A stretch of DNA of 64,000 nucleotides. Origin: Gammaproteobacteria bacterium (GTDB lineage Bacteria; Pseudomonadota; Gammaproteobacteria; Chromatiales; Chromatiaceae). This document shows positions 16,136-31,635 of the stretch, one piece after another. The stretch covers positions 1 to 64,000 of the forward strand of contig JAGRGQ010000010.1 of the NCBI GenBank assembly GCA_020445405.1, written 5' to 3'. The translations under genes were made by a program, and so were the position numbers. The notes below the pieces were generated by a model that was not told the DNA's origin, ran no database searches, and saw only the letters and a program-made list of their open reading frames with translations. Numbering within the stretch: the first letter of the stretch is position 1; every line of letters starts with the position of its first letter.

Positions 16136-18724
16136 TTAGTTCATAGCACCGACCAGCCTGGCCGGCAGCTTCGGCAGACCGCCGATCAATGCCACCACTA
16201 CCGCAGCCAGATAGGGGATGCCCTGTATCCCCAGCACCAGTGCCCAGACGCGGATATCCATCATGTCGCTATCGTTGCGCACCATGAACATGCCGGCGAT
16301 GCCCAGCGAAAGCACCAGCAGGAACAGCAGTTCCTCGCGGGCGTCCATCAGTGAACGGAGCAGCGCGTTGCTGCTGGCGTACTTCGGTGTGCGGAAAAAA
16401 CCGATGCGCCGGGTTATAAAGCCGGTCAGCATGGCTCTGGCGATAGTGTGCGATACGGCCAGGCCGGCGAGTCCCGCCGCCAGGCTCTGACGCAGCGTGG
16501 CCGCCACTCGGCGGCGGTACAGGAACAACATCTTAAGCAGTTTGAATACGAACAGCACGAGCGGCAGCAGTGCGAACAGTATGTTCGGCGGCGCAACCAG
16601 ATCCGGCCACAGCAGCATGCTGACCGACCAGGCTATTGCCCCGAGGTTGAAGAGAAGATTGAAGCCATCGGCCAGCCAGGGCAGCCAACCGGCGATAAAA
16701 TGGTAGCGCTGTCCCCAGGTCAACCGGCTGGGTTCGATTCCAAGCAGCGGCGCCAGGTGGTGCCGGAGGATCAGTACCGCCCCATAGGCCCAGCGGAAAC
16801 GCTGCTTCTTGAAGTCCGCGAAATTATCGGGCATCAATCCTTTTCCGTAGCTCTCGGGAATGTAGGTCGCCTTATATCCCTGCTCGAAGATGCGCAGACC
16901 CAGCTCGGCATCTTCGGTGATGCACCATTCGCCCCATCCCCCCACCTCTTCCAGCACCCGGCGCCGTACCAGCGTCATAGTGCCATGTTGGATAATGGCG
17001 TTGCGCTCGTTGCGGGTTACCATGCCGATGTGGAAAAAGCCCCGATACTCGGCCATGCACATCGCCTTGAACGCATTTTGGCCGCCGTCCCGATAATCCT
17101 GCGGGCCCTGGACTATACCCATTTCGGGATCGTTGAACTGAGGCACCATATCGCGCAGCCAATCGGGTTTCACCATGTAGTCACTGTCGATGACGGCGAC
17201 TATCTCCGCCGTGGGATCGGTCTGCCGCAGTGCATAGTTCAGTGCGCCGGCCTTGAAACCGGCGAGGGGGTCGACGTGAAAGAAACGGAAGCGTGCGCCC
17301 AGGCGTTTGCAGTGAGCCTCGACCGGCTGCCACACGGCGGAATCCTTGGTATTGTTGTCTATGACCAGAACCTCGAACCGCGGATAGCGCAGCGCTGCCA
17401 ATGCATCCAGCGTTTGTATCATCATCTCCGGGGGTTCGTTGTAGGCAGGCACGTGCACCGAAACCATGGGGAGCTGCTCATCCGGAACACCTGAAGGGCG
17501 CTGCACATTGCGCCAGGGACGCATCCATGCGGCCTCCGCCAGCTCATGCGCTTCGGCCAGCAGCACTACGATGACGCCCAGTGCTGCGATGAACAGCATG
17601 ATCCCCACCGCCAGCGTGGCGGGGGTCAGATACTGACGCGAATACTCATAGACCATCCATACCGCAAAGGTGGTAATGAGATAGGCTATCAAAGCCAGAA
17701 ATCCCCGGCCGCGAGCCATCAGACCGCGGCTGTCGCGGAACAGTACTGCCAGCAGCAGTACCGTCAGTCCGATACTGATTGCGACCAGCCCATGCCATCC
17801 CGGCATCCTGACGACCGGTGCGGAAAAATCGAATTTGGGCTCGCGGTTGATGTTATACACCCCCCAGTTGGTTCCCGCCTCCCCTTCCAGCTTCCGTTTC
17901 CACAATTGATCGAATGCTTCCATTACGTAGTAGGTGTAGCCTTCGCGTTCCGCGACTGAGAGAAAGCGCCGCAGAAATTTGGCCTGATTCGCCAGCGTCG
18001 CTTTGGCGTCCTTGCGGGTGCGCCCGTTGCTGGGCCAGCCGACTTCGGCAATCACGATGCGCTTGTCGGGATAGGCCTCCTGGAGTTGCCGGTAGCGGAA
18101 AACAACGTAGTCGACGGCCTGCTCCACATCGATGCCTTCCCAGTACGGCAAGATATGGACCGCGATGAAATCGACGTGTTTGACCAGCTCAGGGTATTTG
18201 AGCCAGATGTGCCAGGGTTCCGCCAGGCTGACAGGTGCCCAGACTTTTTTGCGAACCCTATCGAGATGCCCGATCATCTGTTCGACCGTCTGGTCTCCGC
18301 GCAGCAGCGCTTCATTGCCGACGATCACCCGGACGATGTGCTCATGGTTTTCGCGGTAGATGCGGATGAGCTTTTCGATCTCGGTGTTGTTGGCTTCCGC
18401 GTCCTGATTAATCCATGCGCCGAGCATCACATTGAGCTGATGCGCGCCGGCTAGAGGGGCCACTTCGGCCAGAGTGGACGCCACCGTGTAGGTGCGCACC
18501 GCATACGCCTCCCCGGCCAGCAGGGCAAGATCCTCGTCGATCTCCGCAGTGGATGGGAAGTGTCCCTGCATCGGCGTCTGTGCCCCCCGCATCGGGGAGA
18601 AGCAGAAACCCTGAATCGTAGTGGGCCAGGGTGGCTCCGCGACAGGCTGGTTGATGACCGCCCACAACAGAAACGTCAGGCCGCCCATCAGAAGCGTTAT
18701 CAGAAGGCCGGCGCGATTAATCAA
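16136..18724 (-). CDS. GH17-GT2 membrane beta-glucan synthase (NdvB-like)
   Basis: An 862-residue inner-membrane protein. After one N-terminal helix comes a periplasmic GH17-like domain (about 35-300) with both expected glutamates (VGNEALLRG, acid/base; IAEVGWPS, nucleophile). Three or so helices follow, then a cytosolic processive family 2 glycosyltransferase (about 420-650) with the aspartate motif VIDSDY, the TED motif (CITEDAELG) and KKQRFRW, then C-terminal helices. This architecture is that of NdvB-type proteins of rhizobia and Pseudomonas that make cyclic or linear beta-1,3(1,6)-glucans; the GH17 part acts as a transglycosylase there. It is monocistronic. Product linkage is inferred from the family. 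Confidence 0.88.
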   Translation of the reverse strand: MINRAGLLITLLMGGLTFLLWAVINQPVAEPPWPTTIQGFCFSPMRGAQTPMQGHFPSTAEIDEDLALLAGEAYAVRTYTVASTLAEVAPLAGAHQLNVMLGAWINQDAEANNTEIEKLIRIYRENHEHIVRVIVGNEALLRGDQTVEQMIGHLDRVRKKVWAPVSLAEPWHIWLKYPELVKHVDFIAVHILPYWEGIDVEQAVDYVVFRYRQLQEAYPDKRIVIAEVGWPSNGRTRKDAKATLANQAKFLRRFLSVAEREGYTYYVMEAFDQLWKRKLEGEAGTNWGVYNINREPKFDFSAPVVRMPGWHGLVAISIGLTVLLLAVLFRDSRGLMARGRGFLALIAYLITTFAVWMVYEYSRQYLTPATLAVGIMLFIAALGVIVVLLAEAHELAEAAWMRPWRNVQRPSGVPDEQLPMVSVHVPAYNEPPEMMIQTLDALAALRYPRFEVLVIDNNTKDSAVWQPVEAHCKRLGARFRFFHVDPLAGFKAGALNYALRQTDPTAEIVAVIDSDYMVKPDWLRDMVPQFNDPEMGIVQGPQDYRDGGQNAFKAMCMAEYRGFFHIGMVTRNERNAIIQHGTMTLVRRRVLEEVGGWGEWCITEDAELGLRIFEQGYKATYIPESYGKGLMPDNFADFKKQRFRWAYGAVLILRHHLAPLLGIEPSRLTWGQRYHFIAGWLPWLADGFNLLFNLGAIAWSVSMLLWPDLVAPPNILFALLPLVLFVFKLLKMLFLYRRRVAATLRQSLAAGLAGLAVSHTIARAMLTGFITRRIGFFRTPKYASSNALLRSLMDAREELLFLLVLSLGIAGMFMVRNDSDMMDIRVWALVLGIQGIPYLAAVVVALIGGLPKLPARLVGAMN

Positions 18725-19877: not shown

Positions 19878-20468
19878 TCAGGGAGTGTTTAGCAGGGGAG
19901 CCACGTATTCATCGAACATCTCCTGGTCGACCAGCCCCAGGTGGGTGTAGTTGATCCGGCCGTCCCGGCCGATAACCACATTGTAAGGGACGATCTGGCC
20001 GCTGTTACCCCAATATTCGAGCATTTTAGGTCCGCGAGTGTCGTCCGCGACCAGTACCGGATAGTTGATCCCGAGCGAGCGGCTGACATTCCGCAGCGGT
20101 ATCTCTTTATCCACACCGATACCGATAATCTGCAGTCCAGCGGCTTCGTGCTTGCGCTGCAATTCGATCAGCTCGGGGATCTCGTACTGGCAGGGGGCGC
20201 ACCAGCTGGCCCAGAAGTTGAGCAGGATTACCTTGCCTTTCCAGTGATCGAGGGCGTACTTTTCCCCGTCCAGGGCGGGCAGCGGAATGGTGTGACTCTG
20301 CCAGACATTGTCACCCACCCCGAAGGACGGATTTTTCGTTTGAAGATCCGGGATCGCCGGCTGCTGATCTGCGACGGTCCGCTGGCTCAACTGATAACCG
20401 GCGAATGCGGAGACGCCACCCGAGACCAGGATGGCGATGATCAGGAACGCGGTCAGGGGTTGCTCCAT
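19878..20468 (-). CDS. Membrane-anchored TlpA-like thiol-disulfide protein
   Basis: A 196-residue redoxin. An N-terminal helix (about residues 5-25) anchors the thioredoxin domain in the periplasm; the active site is WASWCAPC with cysteines at 90 and 93, and the cis-proline region is near VPYNVVIGRDG. TlpA/ResA/CcmG relatives reduce apocytochrome cysteines before heme attachment or serve other exported thiol proteins. It is the last gene of a same-strand set, 16 bases after the peptidyl-prolyl isomerase gene and downstream of a seven-heme cytochrome, so a role in maturing that cytochrome is a natural inference. It is distinct from a full CcmG, which would sit in a ccm operon. Confidence 0.85.
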   Translation of the reverse strand: MEQPLTAFLIIAILVSGGVSAFAGYQLSQRTVADQQPAIPDLQTKNPSFGVGDNVWQSHTIPLPALDGEKYALDHWKGKVILLNFWASWCAPCQYEIPELIELQRKHEAAGLQIIGIGVDKEIPLRNVSRSLGINYPVLVADDTRGPKMLEYWGNSGQIVPYNVVIGRDGRINYTHLGLVDQEMFDEYVAPLLNTP

Positions 20469-20484
20469 GGAATGATTTCCGGTC

Positions 20485-21756
20485 TCAATTCTGCTTTTGG
20501 GATTGATCGCTGATCTGCCACACCACGTTGAATTTCTGCGCCAGGTCCTGGGCGTACGTAGTCAGCTTTTCGGACAGATACATCTGGCGTACCTTGTCTT
20601 TAATCAGGGGGTAGGGGCGGGTTTCACCCGGTTTGCGTTCCAGGATGGTGATCAGGTGAAATCCCAACGGGGTCTCGATCACCTCGCTGACCTCTCCGTC
20701 TTTCAATTCAGAGATGGCGGCATTGATCACCGGGCTTCCCCGGTCTTCCTTGATCCAGCCCATGTCACCGTTGTTTTTACGTCCGAAAGGATCGATGCTG
20801 TATTTGCCTGCCAGTGCAAACAGGCTCTCCCCGGCAAGGATGCGCCTGCGCATCTCCTCCGCTTCCTCCCGGGTGGCCAGAACCAACTGGCCGATATGAC
20901 GGCGCTCGACGATCTGTCCAAGTTTGGGATGGCTGTCGAAGTATGCCTTCAATGGCGCTTCGTCCGGCAGCCACTCATGTTCAAGATTCTCCACCAACAG
21001 GGCAGGGAGGTGCTCTGTGCGGAAGGCATCGAGGGCGTCGGAGATATCTATACCCATGTCGACTGCTGCGCGCGCGGTCAGCAGCAGTTCACCGCGGACG
21101 TATAATTGTTCCTCGATCTGCTCTTTCGTCACTTGCTTTTCACGCTGGACCGGGAGGTCGGAATAGAGAATCCGGATTCCCTCGCCTTCCATCAACACGG
21201 TCTCCGGTGCGGCGCCAGGTAGTGCGCGCTCGCTGTACACCTGGACATGGTATCTGTTGCGCAGGCGTCTGATCTCATCGATTCTGGAGCGCTTGTATTG
21301 GTCCGCGATATAGGCGGACTGAGCTGCTTTGTATGCGTCGTGGTTACCTTTGAATTGCGCCTTCATCTGCTGATTGGTTTCATCGGGAATTTTGATTTCG
21401 TCCCGTATTTTGTCCATGTATCTCCGATGCAGTATACCGGTGCGGAAGCGATCCAGTTCATCGAGGTATTGAGCACTTTTGTCTAAATTTTGCGCCTGCG
21501 CCTCGATCAACAGCAGGCGGGAAAGCACCAGACGTTGCAGCATACTGCCGCGCACCGCCGCCTGCTGGTCCTCCTCAAGCGTATTGAACTGGGTGATAAA
21601 AGGGGAGCTGCGAAGTGCCCGTTCAAGGTCGGAAGCTGTGATCTGCAGGCTGCCGATAGTGGCGAGAACCTCGCTGGAACCTGTCGCCTGAGGGCAACTC
21701 CATGACAGGGTGAGCGCTATGAACAGGGCACGTATCGAACGGTGGTTCGGTTTCAT
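20485..21756 (-). CDS. SurA/PpiC-like periplasmic peptidyl-prolyl isomerase
   Basis: A 423-residue exported protein with a signal peptide (ALFIALTLSWSCPQATGS), a helical N-terminal chaperone-like region, and a parvulin domain at about residues 265-360 (ERRHIGQLVLATREEAEEM, YSIDPFGRKNNGDMGW, ELKDGEVSEVIETPLGFHLI). This is the architecture of foldases such as SurA and PrsA. Its place between a multiheme cytochrome c and a TlpA-like thioredoxin suggests a dedicated folding helper; in the sulfite reductase (mcc) gene cluster of Wolinella an isomerase gene likewise neighbours the multiheme cytochrome. A strong hairpin separates it from the cytochrome gene upstream, which would lower its expression relative to the cytochrome. 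Confidence 0.87.
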   Translation of the reverse strand: MKPNHRSIRALFIALTLSWSCPQATGSSEVLATIGSLQITASDLERALRSSPFITQFNTLEEDQQAAVRGSMLQRLVLSRLLLIEAQAQNLDKSAQYLDELDRFRTGILHRRYMDKIRDEIKIPDETNQQMKAQFKGNHDAYKAAQSAYIADQYKRSRIDEIRRLRNRYHVQVYSERALPGAAPETVLMEGEGIRILYSDLPVQREKQVTKEQIEEQLYVRGELLLTARAAVDMGIDISDALDAFRTEHLPALLVENLEHEWLPDEAPLKAYFDSHPKLGQIVERRHIGQLVLATREEAEEMRRRILAGESLFALAGKYSIDPFGRKNNGDMGWIKEDRGSPVINAAISELKDGEVSEVIETPLGFHLITILERKPGETRPYPLIKDKVRQMYLSEKLTTYAQDLAQKFNVVWQISDQSQKQN

Positions 21757-21779
21757 CAGGTTGACTTCCGTATGCAGGC

Positions 21780-21809
21780 AAAAAAGAAAGTGGCCGCAAA
21801 TGCGGCCAC
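21780..21809 (-). terminator. Terminator/attenuator between cytochrome and isomerase genes
   Basis: On the minus strand the 9-bp stem GTGGCCGCA / TGCGGCCAC (21801-21809 with 21790-21798) and two-base loop are followed by a T-rich run (TTTCTTTTTT). It looks like an intrinsic terminator that allows partial read-through into the isomerase gene. Confidence 0.8.
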
Positions 21810-21835
21810 TATGTTACCGCAATGAGCGGGTTGAT

Positions 21836-24289
21836 TTACTCCTCCGGAATCTTACCACCGAGATCGGGTGCACTGGCGTGCATCCAGGATACGGCTGCTG
21901 AGTAATCTTCCAGGATAGGTTTGCCCTTCCATACATGTTCATCGTCGTCCGCGATCCACGGCACACCGTTTTCATTGGTCTCGTGGCAGGCGGCGCATTT
22001 GAACGGGCCGTGGGAACCATCCGGGTTGTACTGCGTGGCCTGGCGGTAGGTGGTCAGATCGGTTCGCTGCGTCACCGGGTACAGACCGTGAATAGACTGA
22101 TGGCAGGCCTGGCAGGCGAGGCCGGCATGTCCCTTGGTATAGCGATTCAGACTGTATTTGCCGGGCTGGTTGATGGGGAAGGCAACGCCGCCCTGACCTT
22201 CAACATAAGGTGCCGCATGGCAATCGGCGCAGTGCGGTGCACCGGCGGAGAGCCAGTAGTCGCGACCGTGGGTGGCAGCTTCGTACGGCACGGCTGCCGC
22301 CCCGGTTGCGCCGGCCGGAAGTTTCAGGGATGCGATGTCCACCGCGGGATTGGCCGACAGCGGCACTACATTGATATCGCCGTCCTCATCCTTGGTTACC
22401 ATCGGACCGTTGCCCTGCAGTGCGATGACCGCAATGTCAGGCACGGTGCGTTTCTTGGCCCAGGTGGCCAGGATTTGGGATTTCCCGGGAGTGTCGTGGC
22501 CCTTGGCATCCAGCACAACCTTCGGGTCCATCATGGACTCCAGGGTCTTCATGTCCACGCCGATACCCTTGGCGATCTCCTTCAGGGACTTGTTGCGCAG
22601 GGTCGTGCCCTCCTGTTTGAAGGCCTGGGAGATGTTGTCGCGCTGGTACAACTCGCGGGACAGCTGGTTGTGGCAGTTGGTGCACCACAAGCCCTTGCCA
22701 TTCTTGCCGTTGCCGATTTGGGAGACGTTGGCCTGGAGCCATTTGCCGATGGCATTCAGGTGCTCTTCGGTTTCCACGCCGTCCTTGTCCTTGTTGGGAT
22801 TGGCATGTACGTCACGACCGACGTAGCAGCCACCGGCAGCGTCGCGGTTGTCACGGGTGGCGTAAGCGTTTTTGCCGTCCGGGGTGATCGGATAGCCTTC
22901 CATGCTGCCGTCCTGACGGTGCGCCGGGTGACAGCCCTGACAGGCGGCACTGCGTTGTTCAGCGTCGGGCATGGGCGCATGGGTCTGGTGCACCGTGTGC
23001 ATGGCCTGGGTCAGCGGCGGAATCCGCTCTTCCTTACCCTCCTTATTCTTGAAGGTGCTGGAGTTGAGTACGCCGATGACGTTGTCCGCGTGGCATTTCT
23101 GGCACAGGATCGGGTCGCGGCCGATGCGATTATCCTTGGAACGGCCGTTGGGGTCGTAGTTCTTCAGGAAGTCGGTGCCGTTATGGTCGTCATGCATCTC
23201 CAGGATTGAGATCGCGGTGCCCTTCAGGTCTGCAAACCAGTCTGAAGCCCCCAAGCCTTTCCAGAACGCTCTCTCCTGCTTGTACAGCTGGAACTTATCG
23301 CCGTTGGCGCGTTCGTTGCCGTGGCAGTTCGGGCAGTTCGGTATGTCGATCGGGTTGGTCCCGACGAATGTGATCGGCTTGCCGTTGTGACTGTCGAGTA
23401 CCGGCGCGCCGCTATCCGCATCCACCAGGCTCACCCAAGCCTCCTGGAACGGCTGGATATCGATCTCCACCAGCGACAGCACATCCTTGGCCGCCACTGA
23501 ATCGTAGAACGGTGTCAGCGGCAGACCCAGGGCGTCCCAGATACCGGGATTGGTCAGCACGATGGGTACATTGTCCAGCACGGGCGATTTGGTGTAGACA
23601 ATCGTGCCCTTCTCGCCGGTGTAATGCAGATGCCCGCCTTTCATCGGACTGGGAGCGGCGGCGCCGGCCGGGCCGTTGTCCTTCGGAACCGGAACATTGA
23701 GACCAACCACCAGTTTTTCGCTGTCTTTGCTGGTGCCTTTGGGGTTGGTGCCCTTGAGGTCCTTGTAAACGTACAGGTGAGTCCAGTAGGCATTCGCGAC
23801 GTTTTCGTTGTCGGTGTACTTGCCGTCACCGTTCACGTCGTAGCGCACGTCCCAATAGACCATTTTGCTCCCTTCGGAGTAAGTGTTGTCGATATGGCCG
23901 TAGGCGAGCTTCATGCGCTTATTGCCGTCCACCACGACAGTGGGATCGTTGGCGTCGGCCTCGAGCAGTTCGGGGTACCGCTTCCTGCCGGTTGAGGTTT
24001 TGATTACCTGGCTCTGCACCGAATTATAGGGTGGAAGCACGCAACAGTAGCTGAAATCGAAGCCGGTGCAGTGCATGCCCAGTTCGTAATTTATCGTGAT
24101 GTTGTAATCATTTTTAGGCTTGGCGACATCGGCAGCCACCAGAGCCCCTTCGTAGCGCTTTGGCGCGTCCACAGCAGCATGCATGGCCTCGGCCTTCATA
24201 GGCTCCGCTTCGGTTGCTGTTTGTGGTGTGGTACACCCACCGGCGAATGCGACCGTGAAAGCCGCTAGAGCAAAGACAGGTCCGCGCAT
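21836..24289 (-). CDS. Seven-heme c-type cytochrome, putative lipoprotein
   Basis: An 817-residue exported cytochrome. The signal peptide ends in FAGGC (C19), a plausible lipoprotein site. Residues 60-300 are heme-free, with ELGMHC (C74), SYCCVLPPYNSV (C82, C83) and an EF-hand-like calcium loop DVNGDGKYTDNE. The C-terminal part carries seven CXXCH sites: CPNCH, CQKCH, CQGCH, CTNCH, CADCH, CQACH and CAACH. Another cysteine is in GGCYVG. I recognise the GMHCTGFDFSYCC/PPYNS domain as recurring in uncharacterised multiheme cytochromes, not as an enzyme of known activity. It may pass electrons at the outer membrane or act as a reductase. The ATG follows AAGGGGGG. It leads a set with a peptidyl-prolyl isomerase and a TlpA-like protein. 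Confidence 0.85.
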   Translation of the reverse strand: MRGPVFALAAFTVAFAGGCTTPQTATEAEPMKAEAMHAAVDAPKRYEGALVAADVAKPKNDYNITINYELGMHCTGFDFSYCCVLPPYNSVQSQVIKTSTGRKRYPELLEADANDPTVVVDGNKRMKLAYGHIDNTYSEGSKMVYWDVRYDVNGDGKYTDNENVANAYWTHLYVYKDLKGTNPKGTSKDSEKLVVGLNVPVPKDNGPAGAAAPSPMKGGHLHYTGEKGTIVYTKSPVLDNVPIVLTNPGIWDALGLPLTPFYDSVAAKDVLSLVEIDIQPFQEAWVSLVDADSGAPVLDSHNGKPITFVGTNPIDIPNCPNCHGNERANGDKFQLYKQERAFWKGLGASDWFADLKGTAISILEMHDDHNGTDFLKNYDPNGRSKDNRIGRDPILCQKCHADNVIGVLNSSTFKNKEGKEERIPPLTQAMHTVHQTHAPMPDAEQRSAACQGCHPAHRQDGSMEGYPITPDGKNAYATRDNRDAAGGCYVGRDVHANPNKDKDGVETEEHLNAIGKWLQANVSQIGNGKNGKGLWCTNCHNQLSRELYQRDNISQAFKQEGTTLRNKSLKEIAKGIGVDMKTLESMMDPKVVLDAKGHDTPGKSQILATWAKKRTVPDIAVIALQGNGPMVTKDEDGDINVVPLSANPAVDIASLKLPAGATGAAAVPYEAATHGRDYWLSAGAPHCADCHAAPYVEGQGGVAFPINQPGKYSLNRYTKGHAGLACQACHQSIHGLYPVTQRTDLTTYRQATQYNPDGSHGPFKCAACHETNENGVPWIADDDEHVWKGKPILEDYSAAVSWMHASAPDLGGKIPEE

Positions 24290-31212: not shown

Positions 31213-31635
31213 TCAGCGCACCGCATAGAGCGTGCCGTTGACCTGGAATGGCTGATCGCCATCGTTTGAAATCTGGATGAAAATATTTTTCGGTCCGAAA
31301 ATATCGAAACTGGCACGGTAGTTCAGAACCCCCAAGGGCCCGATCCGCCCACTGCCAATGGTGAAACTCATCTGGTCGACTGAGCCCGCGGGACCGAACA
31401 TCTCCTGAATACTGAATGGGGCGCCCTGAGCGCCGACAAAATGCAAAGTCAGGCGATAGTCGCTGTAACCGGTCAGATCAAGTCCGCCCAAAGGCCCCAG
31501 CGCGCTGTGATTGGGTGAGATCTCACGCGCATCGAAGAGCGTTACCAGATAGGGTTTTGCGATCACTCCAACATCCAGAGGAACGTTGACAACCTTGACC
31601 GGAATGATCTTGGTTTTGCGCTTTTTCGCTTTCAT
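31213..31635 (-). CDS. Hypothetical protein, beta-rich (140 aa)
   Basis: I do not recognise this protein. It begins with a very basic stretch (MKAKKRKTKIIPVKVV) and then alternates hydrophobic and polar residues in a way that suggests a beta-sandwich, ending DGDQPFQVNGTLYAVR. There is no signal peptide, membrane helix or cysteine. A GGAAAAGAGA sequence lies before the ATG. It is flanked by intergenic DNA on one side and a second mgtE gene, same strand and about 170 bases upstream, on the other. The coding character (clean start, no internal oddities) makes it a likely real gene. Confidence 0.55.
   Translation of the reverse strand: MKAKKRKTKIIPVKVVNVPLDVGVIAKPYLVTLFDAREISPNHSALGPLGGLDLTGYSDYRLTLHFVGAQGAPFSIQEMFGPAGSVDQMSFTIGSGRIGPLGVLNYRASFDIFGPKNIFIQISNDGDQPFQVNGTLYAVR

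Follow-up and report, generated by a model that had tools for sequence, protein, structure and literature searches.

The window, the whole stretch of 64,000 nucleotides that was analyzed, encodes a seven-heme c-type cytochrome that is a member of an undescribed multiheme family with a recognizable type of assembly cassette, in this case a peptidyl-prolyl isomerase and a TlpA-like thioredoxin. The cassette recurs among relatives of the cytochrome, it comes with invariant residues and with a hairpin after the cytochrome gene, and its two helpers are extra to the housekeeping ones. We read it as a redox module of respiration, located in the periplasm or bound to the outer membrane, whose cytochrome has a thiol site and is matured by factors of its own; to this reading we assign a probability of roughly 0.5.

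The cassette, its cytochrome, and their distribution

All three open reading frames were read from the minus strand of the window, separated by intergenic gaps of 79 and 16 bases (Table 1). An earlier note on this DNA had claimed such a same-strand set, and the domain matches of the isomerase and the thioredoxin agree with it. Upstream, the cassette is next to a glycogen phosphorylase gene of the same strand, and the opposite flank is occupied by an enoyl-CoA hydratase gene; the unit therefore consists of three genes only. A terminator-like hairpin and T tract comparable to that found 3' of the cytochrome gene is present in 52 of 62 relatives, compared to 66 of 300 length-matched random stretches. 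This element may let the cytochrome exceed its helpers in amount. Elsewhere in the window, positions 16136-18724 encode an 862-aa protein in which a glycosyl hydrolase family 17 match is fused to a family 2 glycosyltransferase, and an open frame of 140 aa at 31213-31635 has no Pfam match.

Table 1. Features of the cassette, in positions of the window
Feature	Position	Strand	Basis or remark
Seven-heme c-type cytochrome, 817 aa, candidate lipoprotein	21836..24289	-	seven CXXCH; Pfam Cytochrome_C7 and MtrC/MtrF domain II/IV
PpiC/SurA-like peptidyl-prolyl isomerase, 423 aa	20485..21756	-	Pfam Rotamase PF00639, 4.9e-14
TlpA/ResA-like thioredoxin, 196 aa, WASWCAPC, N-terminal hydrophobic anchor	19878..20468	-	Pfam Redoxin and AhpC-TSA
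Terminator-like hairpin and T tract 3' of cytochrome gene	21779..21810	-	9-pair stem, then TTCTTTTTTG
Lipobox-like AGGC, residues 16-19	24233..24244	-	sequence, near-consensus only
Heme-free N-terminal domain, residues 59-315	23345..24115	-	no Pfam/NCBIfam match; AlphaFold2; no significant PDB fold match
GMHC...CC...PPYN motif, residues 67-95, with H73, C74, C82, C83	24005..24091	-	alignment
EF-hand-like loop, residues 151-162	23804..23839	-	D151 and G156 invariant
Heme motif 1, CPNCH, residues 319-323	23321..23335	-	sequence
Heme motif 2, CQKCH, residues 396-400	23090..23104	-	sequence
Heme motif 3, CQGCH, residues 450-454	22928..22942	-	sequence
C488, fourth invariant non-heme cysteine	22826..22828	-	79/79 in family, 22/22 in wider set
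Heme motif 4, CTNCH, residues 536-540	22670..22684	-	sequence
Second Ca-loop-like stretch, DEDGD, residues 634-642	22364..22390	-	D634, D636, and G637 invariant
Heme motif 5, CADCH, residues 687-691, restricted to CC type	22217..22231	-	alignment
Heme motif 6, CQACH, residues 726-730	22100..22114	-	sequence
Heme motif 7, CAACH, residues 765-769	21983..21997	-	sequence

The cytochrome contains exactly seven heme motifs, all of the ordinary CXXCH type, as had been claimed earlier for this 817-residue protein, and the EF-hand-like loop described at the same time is likewise in place. The hemes are invariant across 79 aligned family sequences, with the last heme gapped in one row. Ten further histidines are conserved in the same alignment (residues 366, 431, 434, 457, 495, 686, 721, 734, 760 [75/79], and 804). 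These could act as distal ligands and would be enough for bis-His coordination of all seven hemes, which weakens the case for an open catalytic heme. Pfam Cytochrome_C7 matches residues 685 to 769 above its cut-off, and MtrC/MtrF domain II/IV (PF22113) matches residues 301 to 458 with 33.4 bits against a cut-off of 30, a partial match that covers profile positions 13 to 131 of 176. What stands of the proposed lipid anchor is a lipobox-like site that is not quite consensus; by a loose pattern, fewer than half of the relatives have one, and the rest have ordinary signal peptides or insufficient sequence.

The N-terminal domain had been described as being of unknown function, and we found no characterized family or structure for it in Pfam, NCBIfam, or solved structures. 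Foldseek searches with models of the whole protein and of the domain gave no match at an E value of 0.001, while a PDB profile search with the cytochrome returned nothing beyond weak hits to c7 cytochromes and a single putative lipoprotein. AlphaFold2 modeled the whole cytochrome with a pLDDT of 76.6 and a pTM of 0.81 and the N-terminal domain, which is beta-rich, with a pLDDT of 81.1 and a pTM of 0.78. Confidence falls near the GMHC loop, as might be expected if a cofactor-packing loop is modeled without its heme. H73, C74, C82, and C83 are invariant in 79/79 aligned family sequences; the three cysteines had been listed in the earlier note, which had omitted C488, and all four proved to be equally conserved. 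We infer that H73 of the GMHC loop packs against or ligates a heme and that C74 and C488 constitute a thiol site, either a disulfide or a metal site, that joins both halves of the protein. In the CC-type subfamily, this site would be extended by C82-C83.

A scan of one genome per species identified relatives at 80 loci, with 36 to 82% identity. The hosts are Sedimenticola-like and other Gammaproteobacteria, methanotrophs, Sulfuricella, Nitrospinota, Saprospiraceae (Bacteroidota), and one Acidobacteria bin; Thiodiazotropha has a 9-heme branch of the family. This set of homologues leans to close kin because it was seeded from peptide patterns of the window cytochrome, and many of its records are metagenome bins, some names of which may be wrong. 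Full-length matches were found in 25 of 146 genomes of the same family, the Chromatiaceae, and in none of the 397 further genomes drawn from across the phylum, so the cytochrome gene is rare and patchy. A PHROGs search and a tblastn search of plasmids gave no match. In the literature on methanotrophs, Sedimenticola, and Thiodiazotropha, we found no description of this family, and a paper on a Methylobacter bioanode does not mention an isomerase. A possible kinship with the c553o surface cytochromes of Methylococcus capsulatus was also considered.

Isomerase, thioredoxin, and the CC-type cysteines

An isomerase gene lies directly downstream on the same strand in 60 of the 72 CC-type genes for which at least 1.5 kb of downstream sequence was available. 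The 12 loci that lack it in that position include five Bacteroidota loci and L057; at L039, the isomerase gene precedes that of the cytochrome. Among the 51 loci with enough flank, 34 have a TlpA-like gene no more than 3 kb from the cytochrome. Its side and strand differ by lineage while its proximity is kept, which argues for a functional tie to the cytochrome. The earlier note had named two outcomes that would refute its proposal, homologues that do not keep these neighbors and a characterized enzyme that matches the N-terminal domain. Neither was observed; the isomerase linkage is kept and the thioredoxin is frequent. In the tree, all TlpA-linked members are Pseudomonadota, in both the 9-heme and the 7-heme branches, and a branch of 15 rows (Bacteroidota, Nitrospinota, and one Acidobacteria row) has none. 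The Nitrospinota and Bacteroidota relatives keep the extra cysteines, and no TlpA gene was found near them. The divergence of cytochrome and isomerase matches (Mantel r = 0.84), a correlation that we set aside as linkage evidence because shared species descent gives an equal result.

Some bins have at least two CC-type copies (L078 with L082, L029 with L065, L027 with L033, and L077). In such bins, one copy often lies beside oxidase or Cu-ATPase genes and has no isomerase. In the Saprospiraceae loci L055 and L056, the cytochrome gene adjoins a divergent [NiFe] hydrogenase-like cluster, also with no isomerase.

The genome that contains the window (G000) also encodes a canonical CcmG/DsbE (C36, 167.2 bits), separate from the cassette, and a SurA-type protein with two rotamase domains (C77). 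The cassette thioredoxin scored 58.9 to 59.1 bits against NCBIfam dsbE, under the cut-off of 123.15, and the cassette isomerase, which has one rotamase domain, scored 46 bits versus a cut-off of 394 for the SurA equivalog. Therefore, both cassette helpers are extra. As dedicated assembly factors, the isomerase would help the apoprotein to fold, and the thioredoxin would keep cysteines of the cytochrome, either those of the N-terminal domain or the CXXCH pairs, reduced.

The cytochrome profile also identified a sister group of 8- to 9-heme proteins of ∼600 to 1100 aa, two of them in the same genome as the window. As in the CC type, a GMHC loop and the four core hemes are present, along with most of the c7-like end, and H73, C74, and C488 are common to both (H73 and C74 in 11/11). 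In contrast, C82-C83 is found in 0/11, with F, S, A, or V in its place, heme 687 and its histidine are missing, and 0/11 have an isomerase or TlpA neighbor; this comparison covers 11 proteins of the Chromatiaceae only. The absence of both helpers is consistent with C82-C83 and the thioredoxin belonging together, although this co-occurrence is not independent evidence because the CC type is a single clade. Genomes that have relatives of both the CC type and the CC-less type provide a built-in comparison for testing how an isomerase and a thioredoxin of its own serve a multiheme cytochrome. The two 9-heme paralogues of this genome that lack C82-C83 are L087:7633-10149 (contig C282) and L088:6799-9393 (contig C66). 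At L088, genes for a response regulator and a histidine-kinase-like protein lie ahead of the paralogue, and two-component genes also flank paralogues at L089, L094, L095, L100, and L102. Some paralogues contain PKD or DUF5666 modules.

Redox neighbors and alternative readings

Redox genes within 6 kb of the cytochrome were counted at the 46 loci with enough flank. The most frequent were c4-type diheme genes (16/46) and NapC/NirT-type tetraheme genes (14/46), followed by COX I (7/46), Cu-ATPase (4/46), DsrO with DsrP (3/46, in Nitrospinota), and NapA (1/46). The neighbors differ by lineage, with combinations of NapC/NirT and diheme c, oxidase and c4, DsrOP, or Nap; in the window, there is no NapC or c4 gene beside the cassette. 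NapA is present in 24/25 carrier genomes versus 57/121 others (Fisher test, 2.8e-6) and cd1-type proteins are present in 22/25 versus 53/121 (4.5e-5), relatedness not being removed from either comparison. This enrichment is a lead only, and non-carriers in the genera g1 and g29 also have NapA. Together, the redox neighbors and the enrichment place the cytochrome in respiration. The genome of the window has NapA and a cd1-type protein and has no dsrA over the cut-off (best E value, 3.4e-27), compared to its presence in 120 of 146 family genomes.

As a respiratory module, the cytochrome would carry electrons between the quinone or c-type pool and whatever substrate or partner its N-terminal domain binds. 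Contact with the pool may be made via NapC/NirT-type or diheme c4-type partners, or via DsrOP in Nitrospinota. A bolder version places the protein in a class of envelope oxidoreductases not recognized before, heme-thiol or possibly heme-copper enzymes with a previously undescribed N-terminal domain, in which H73, the three N-domain cysteines, and C488 form the site, its own isomerase and thioredoxin mature it, and an unrecognized respiratory substrate is turned over in sulfur oxidizers, methanotrophs, and Nitrospinota. We consider this version doubtful.

A tentative alternative is that the protein is an extracellular electron conduit or surface cytochrome with an MtrC/OmcA-like role, anchored by lipid, that passes electrons to or from minerals, cells, or other cytochromes and lacks any specific site for a small molecule. 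The lipobox-like site, the MtrC/MtrF domain match above the Pfam cut-off, histidines enough for bis-His ligation throughout, the PKD and DUF5666 modules of the paralogues, and the pairing of an isomerase with a surface cytochrome in Uet and the omcZ operon all fit such a conduit. However, no MtrB/PioB porin was found in the genome, the surroundings of the cassette showed no porin gene, a lipobox is missing from many relatives by the loose pattern, and the neighbors that do occur are quinol or c-type redox proteins.

It is unlikely that the cytochrome is a SirA/MccA-like reductase, with cysteine-bound copper by an active heme and a thioredoxin that readies the copper cysteines in the manner of TlpA acting on CoxB. 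TlpA reduces the copper-site cysteines of CoxB, subunit II of cytochrome oxidase (PMC7558416), two cysteines are invariant in the wider family, a Cu-ATPase gene is near 4/46 loci, and the gene set, together with the Nitrospinota order of FeS, NrfD-type, cytochrome, and isomerase genes, recalls sir/mcc. Yet the hemes are all CXXCH, neither sequence nor fold searches matched the protein to a multiheme reductase, a search of the cassette for a copper chaperone found none, and the Cu-ATPases mostly go with oxidase genes. Least probable, and in our judgment very unlikely, is that the isomerase and thioredoxin serve the envelope in general and lie beside the cytochrome by chance: both kinds of protein are common and the co-divergence of cytochrome and isomerase is also expected from shared descent, but their adjacency persists across phyla, separate CcmG and SurA-type genes exist, and the CC-less paralogues have neither neighbor.

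Comparison with named systems

In the mcc sulfite reductase cluster, an isomerase is linked to the cytochrome, and the complete Nitrospinota gene order (FeS, NrfD-type, unknown gene, cytochrome, isomerase) recalls that of mcc. The Nitrospinota FeS partner scores as DsrO (297 bits against a cut-off of 200), and the other partner is NrfD-type; such FeS and NrfD-type partners of Sir/Mcc are absent beside the window cassette and were found at the 3 Nitrospinota loci only. At these loci (L043, L046, and L047), the genes ahead of the cytochrome are those of the DsrO/DsrP type together with a conserved gene of ∼315 aa, to which neither Pfam nor NCBIfam gave a match. The SirA/MccA clusters of Shewanella and Wolinella resemble the cassette in combining a multiheme cytochrome with a TlpA-family thioredoxin, SirH there and the product of 19878-20468 here, and deletion of Shewanella sirH delays SirA maturation (PMC6976685). 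However, the atypical heme motif of MccA/SirA, CX12NKGCH or CX15CH (PMC6976685), is absent from the window cytochrome, its N-terminal domain is unrelated, the cassette includes no dedicated heme lyase, and PDB profile and Foldseek searches gave no sequence or fold match to solved multiheme reductases.

The MtrC/MtrF cytochromes have ten hemes versus seven and a different N-terminal domain. The NCBIfam OmcA/MtrC model does not match the window cytochrome, and no MtrB/PioB porin was matched in the genome, which is 98% complete. Searches of the PDB by sequence and by fold brought up no OmcS, OmcE, or OmcZ nanowire entry. On the features tested, the protein fails to qualify as a member of Mcc/Sir, of MtrC/OmcA, or of the nanowires.

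The Geobacter omcZ operon and the Uet cluster also encode a peptidyl-prolyl isomerase with a multiheme cytochrome, GSU2074 (PMC5585712) and UetB (PMC10734462), respectively. Their cytochromes are unrelated to the present one by our searches, and their porin or NHL-repeat genes were not seen here. The earlier statement that no named system has this set needs qualifying, as an isomerase next to a multiheme cytochrome is known from omcZ and Uet and a TlpA-family thioredoxin from Shewanella sir. The cassette marks an uncharacterized electron-transfer protein of sulfur-oxidizing bacteria and symbionts, methanotrophs, and Nitrospinota, and the question of what its helpers do extends to the OmcZ, Uet, and Sir systems.
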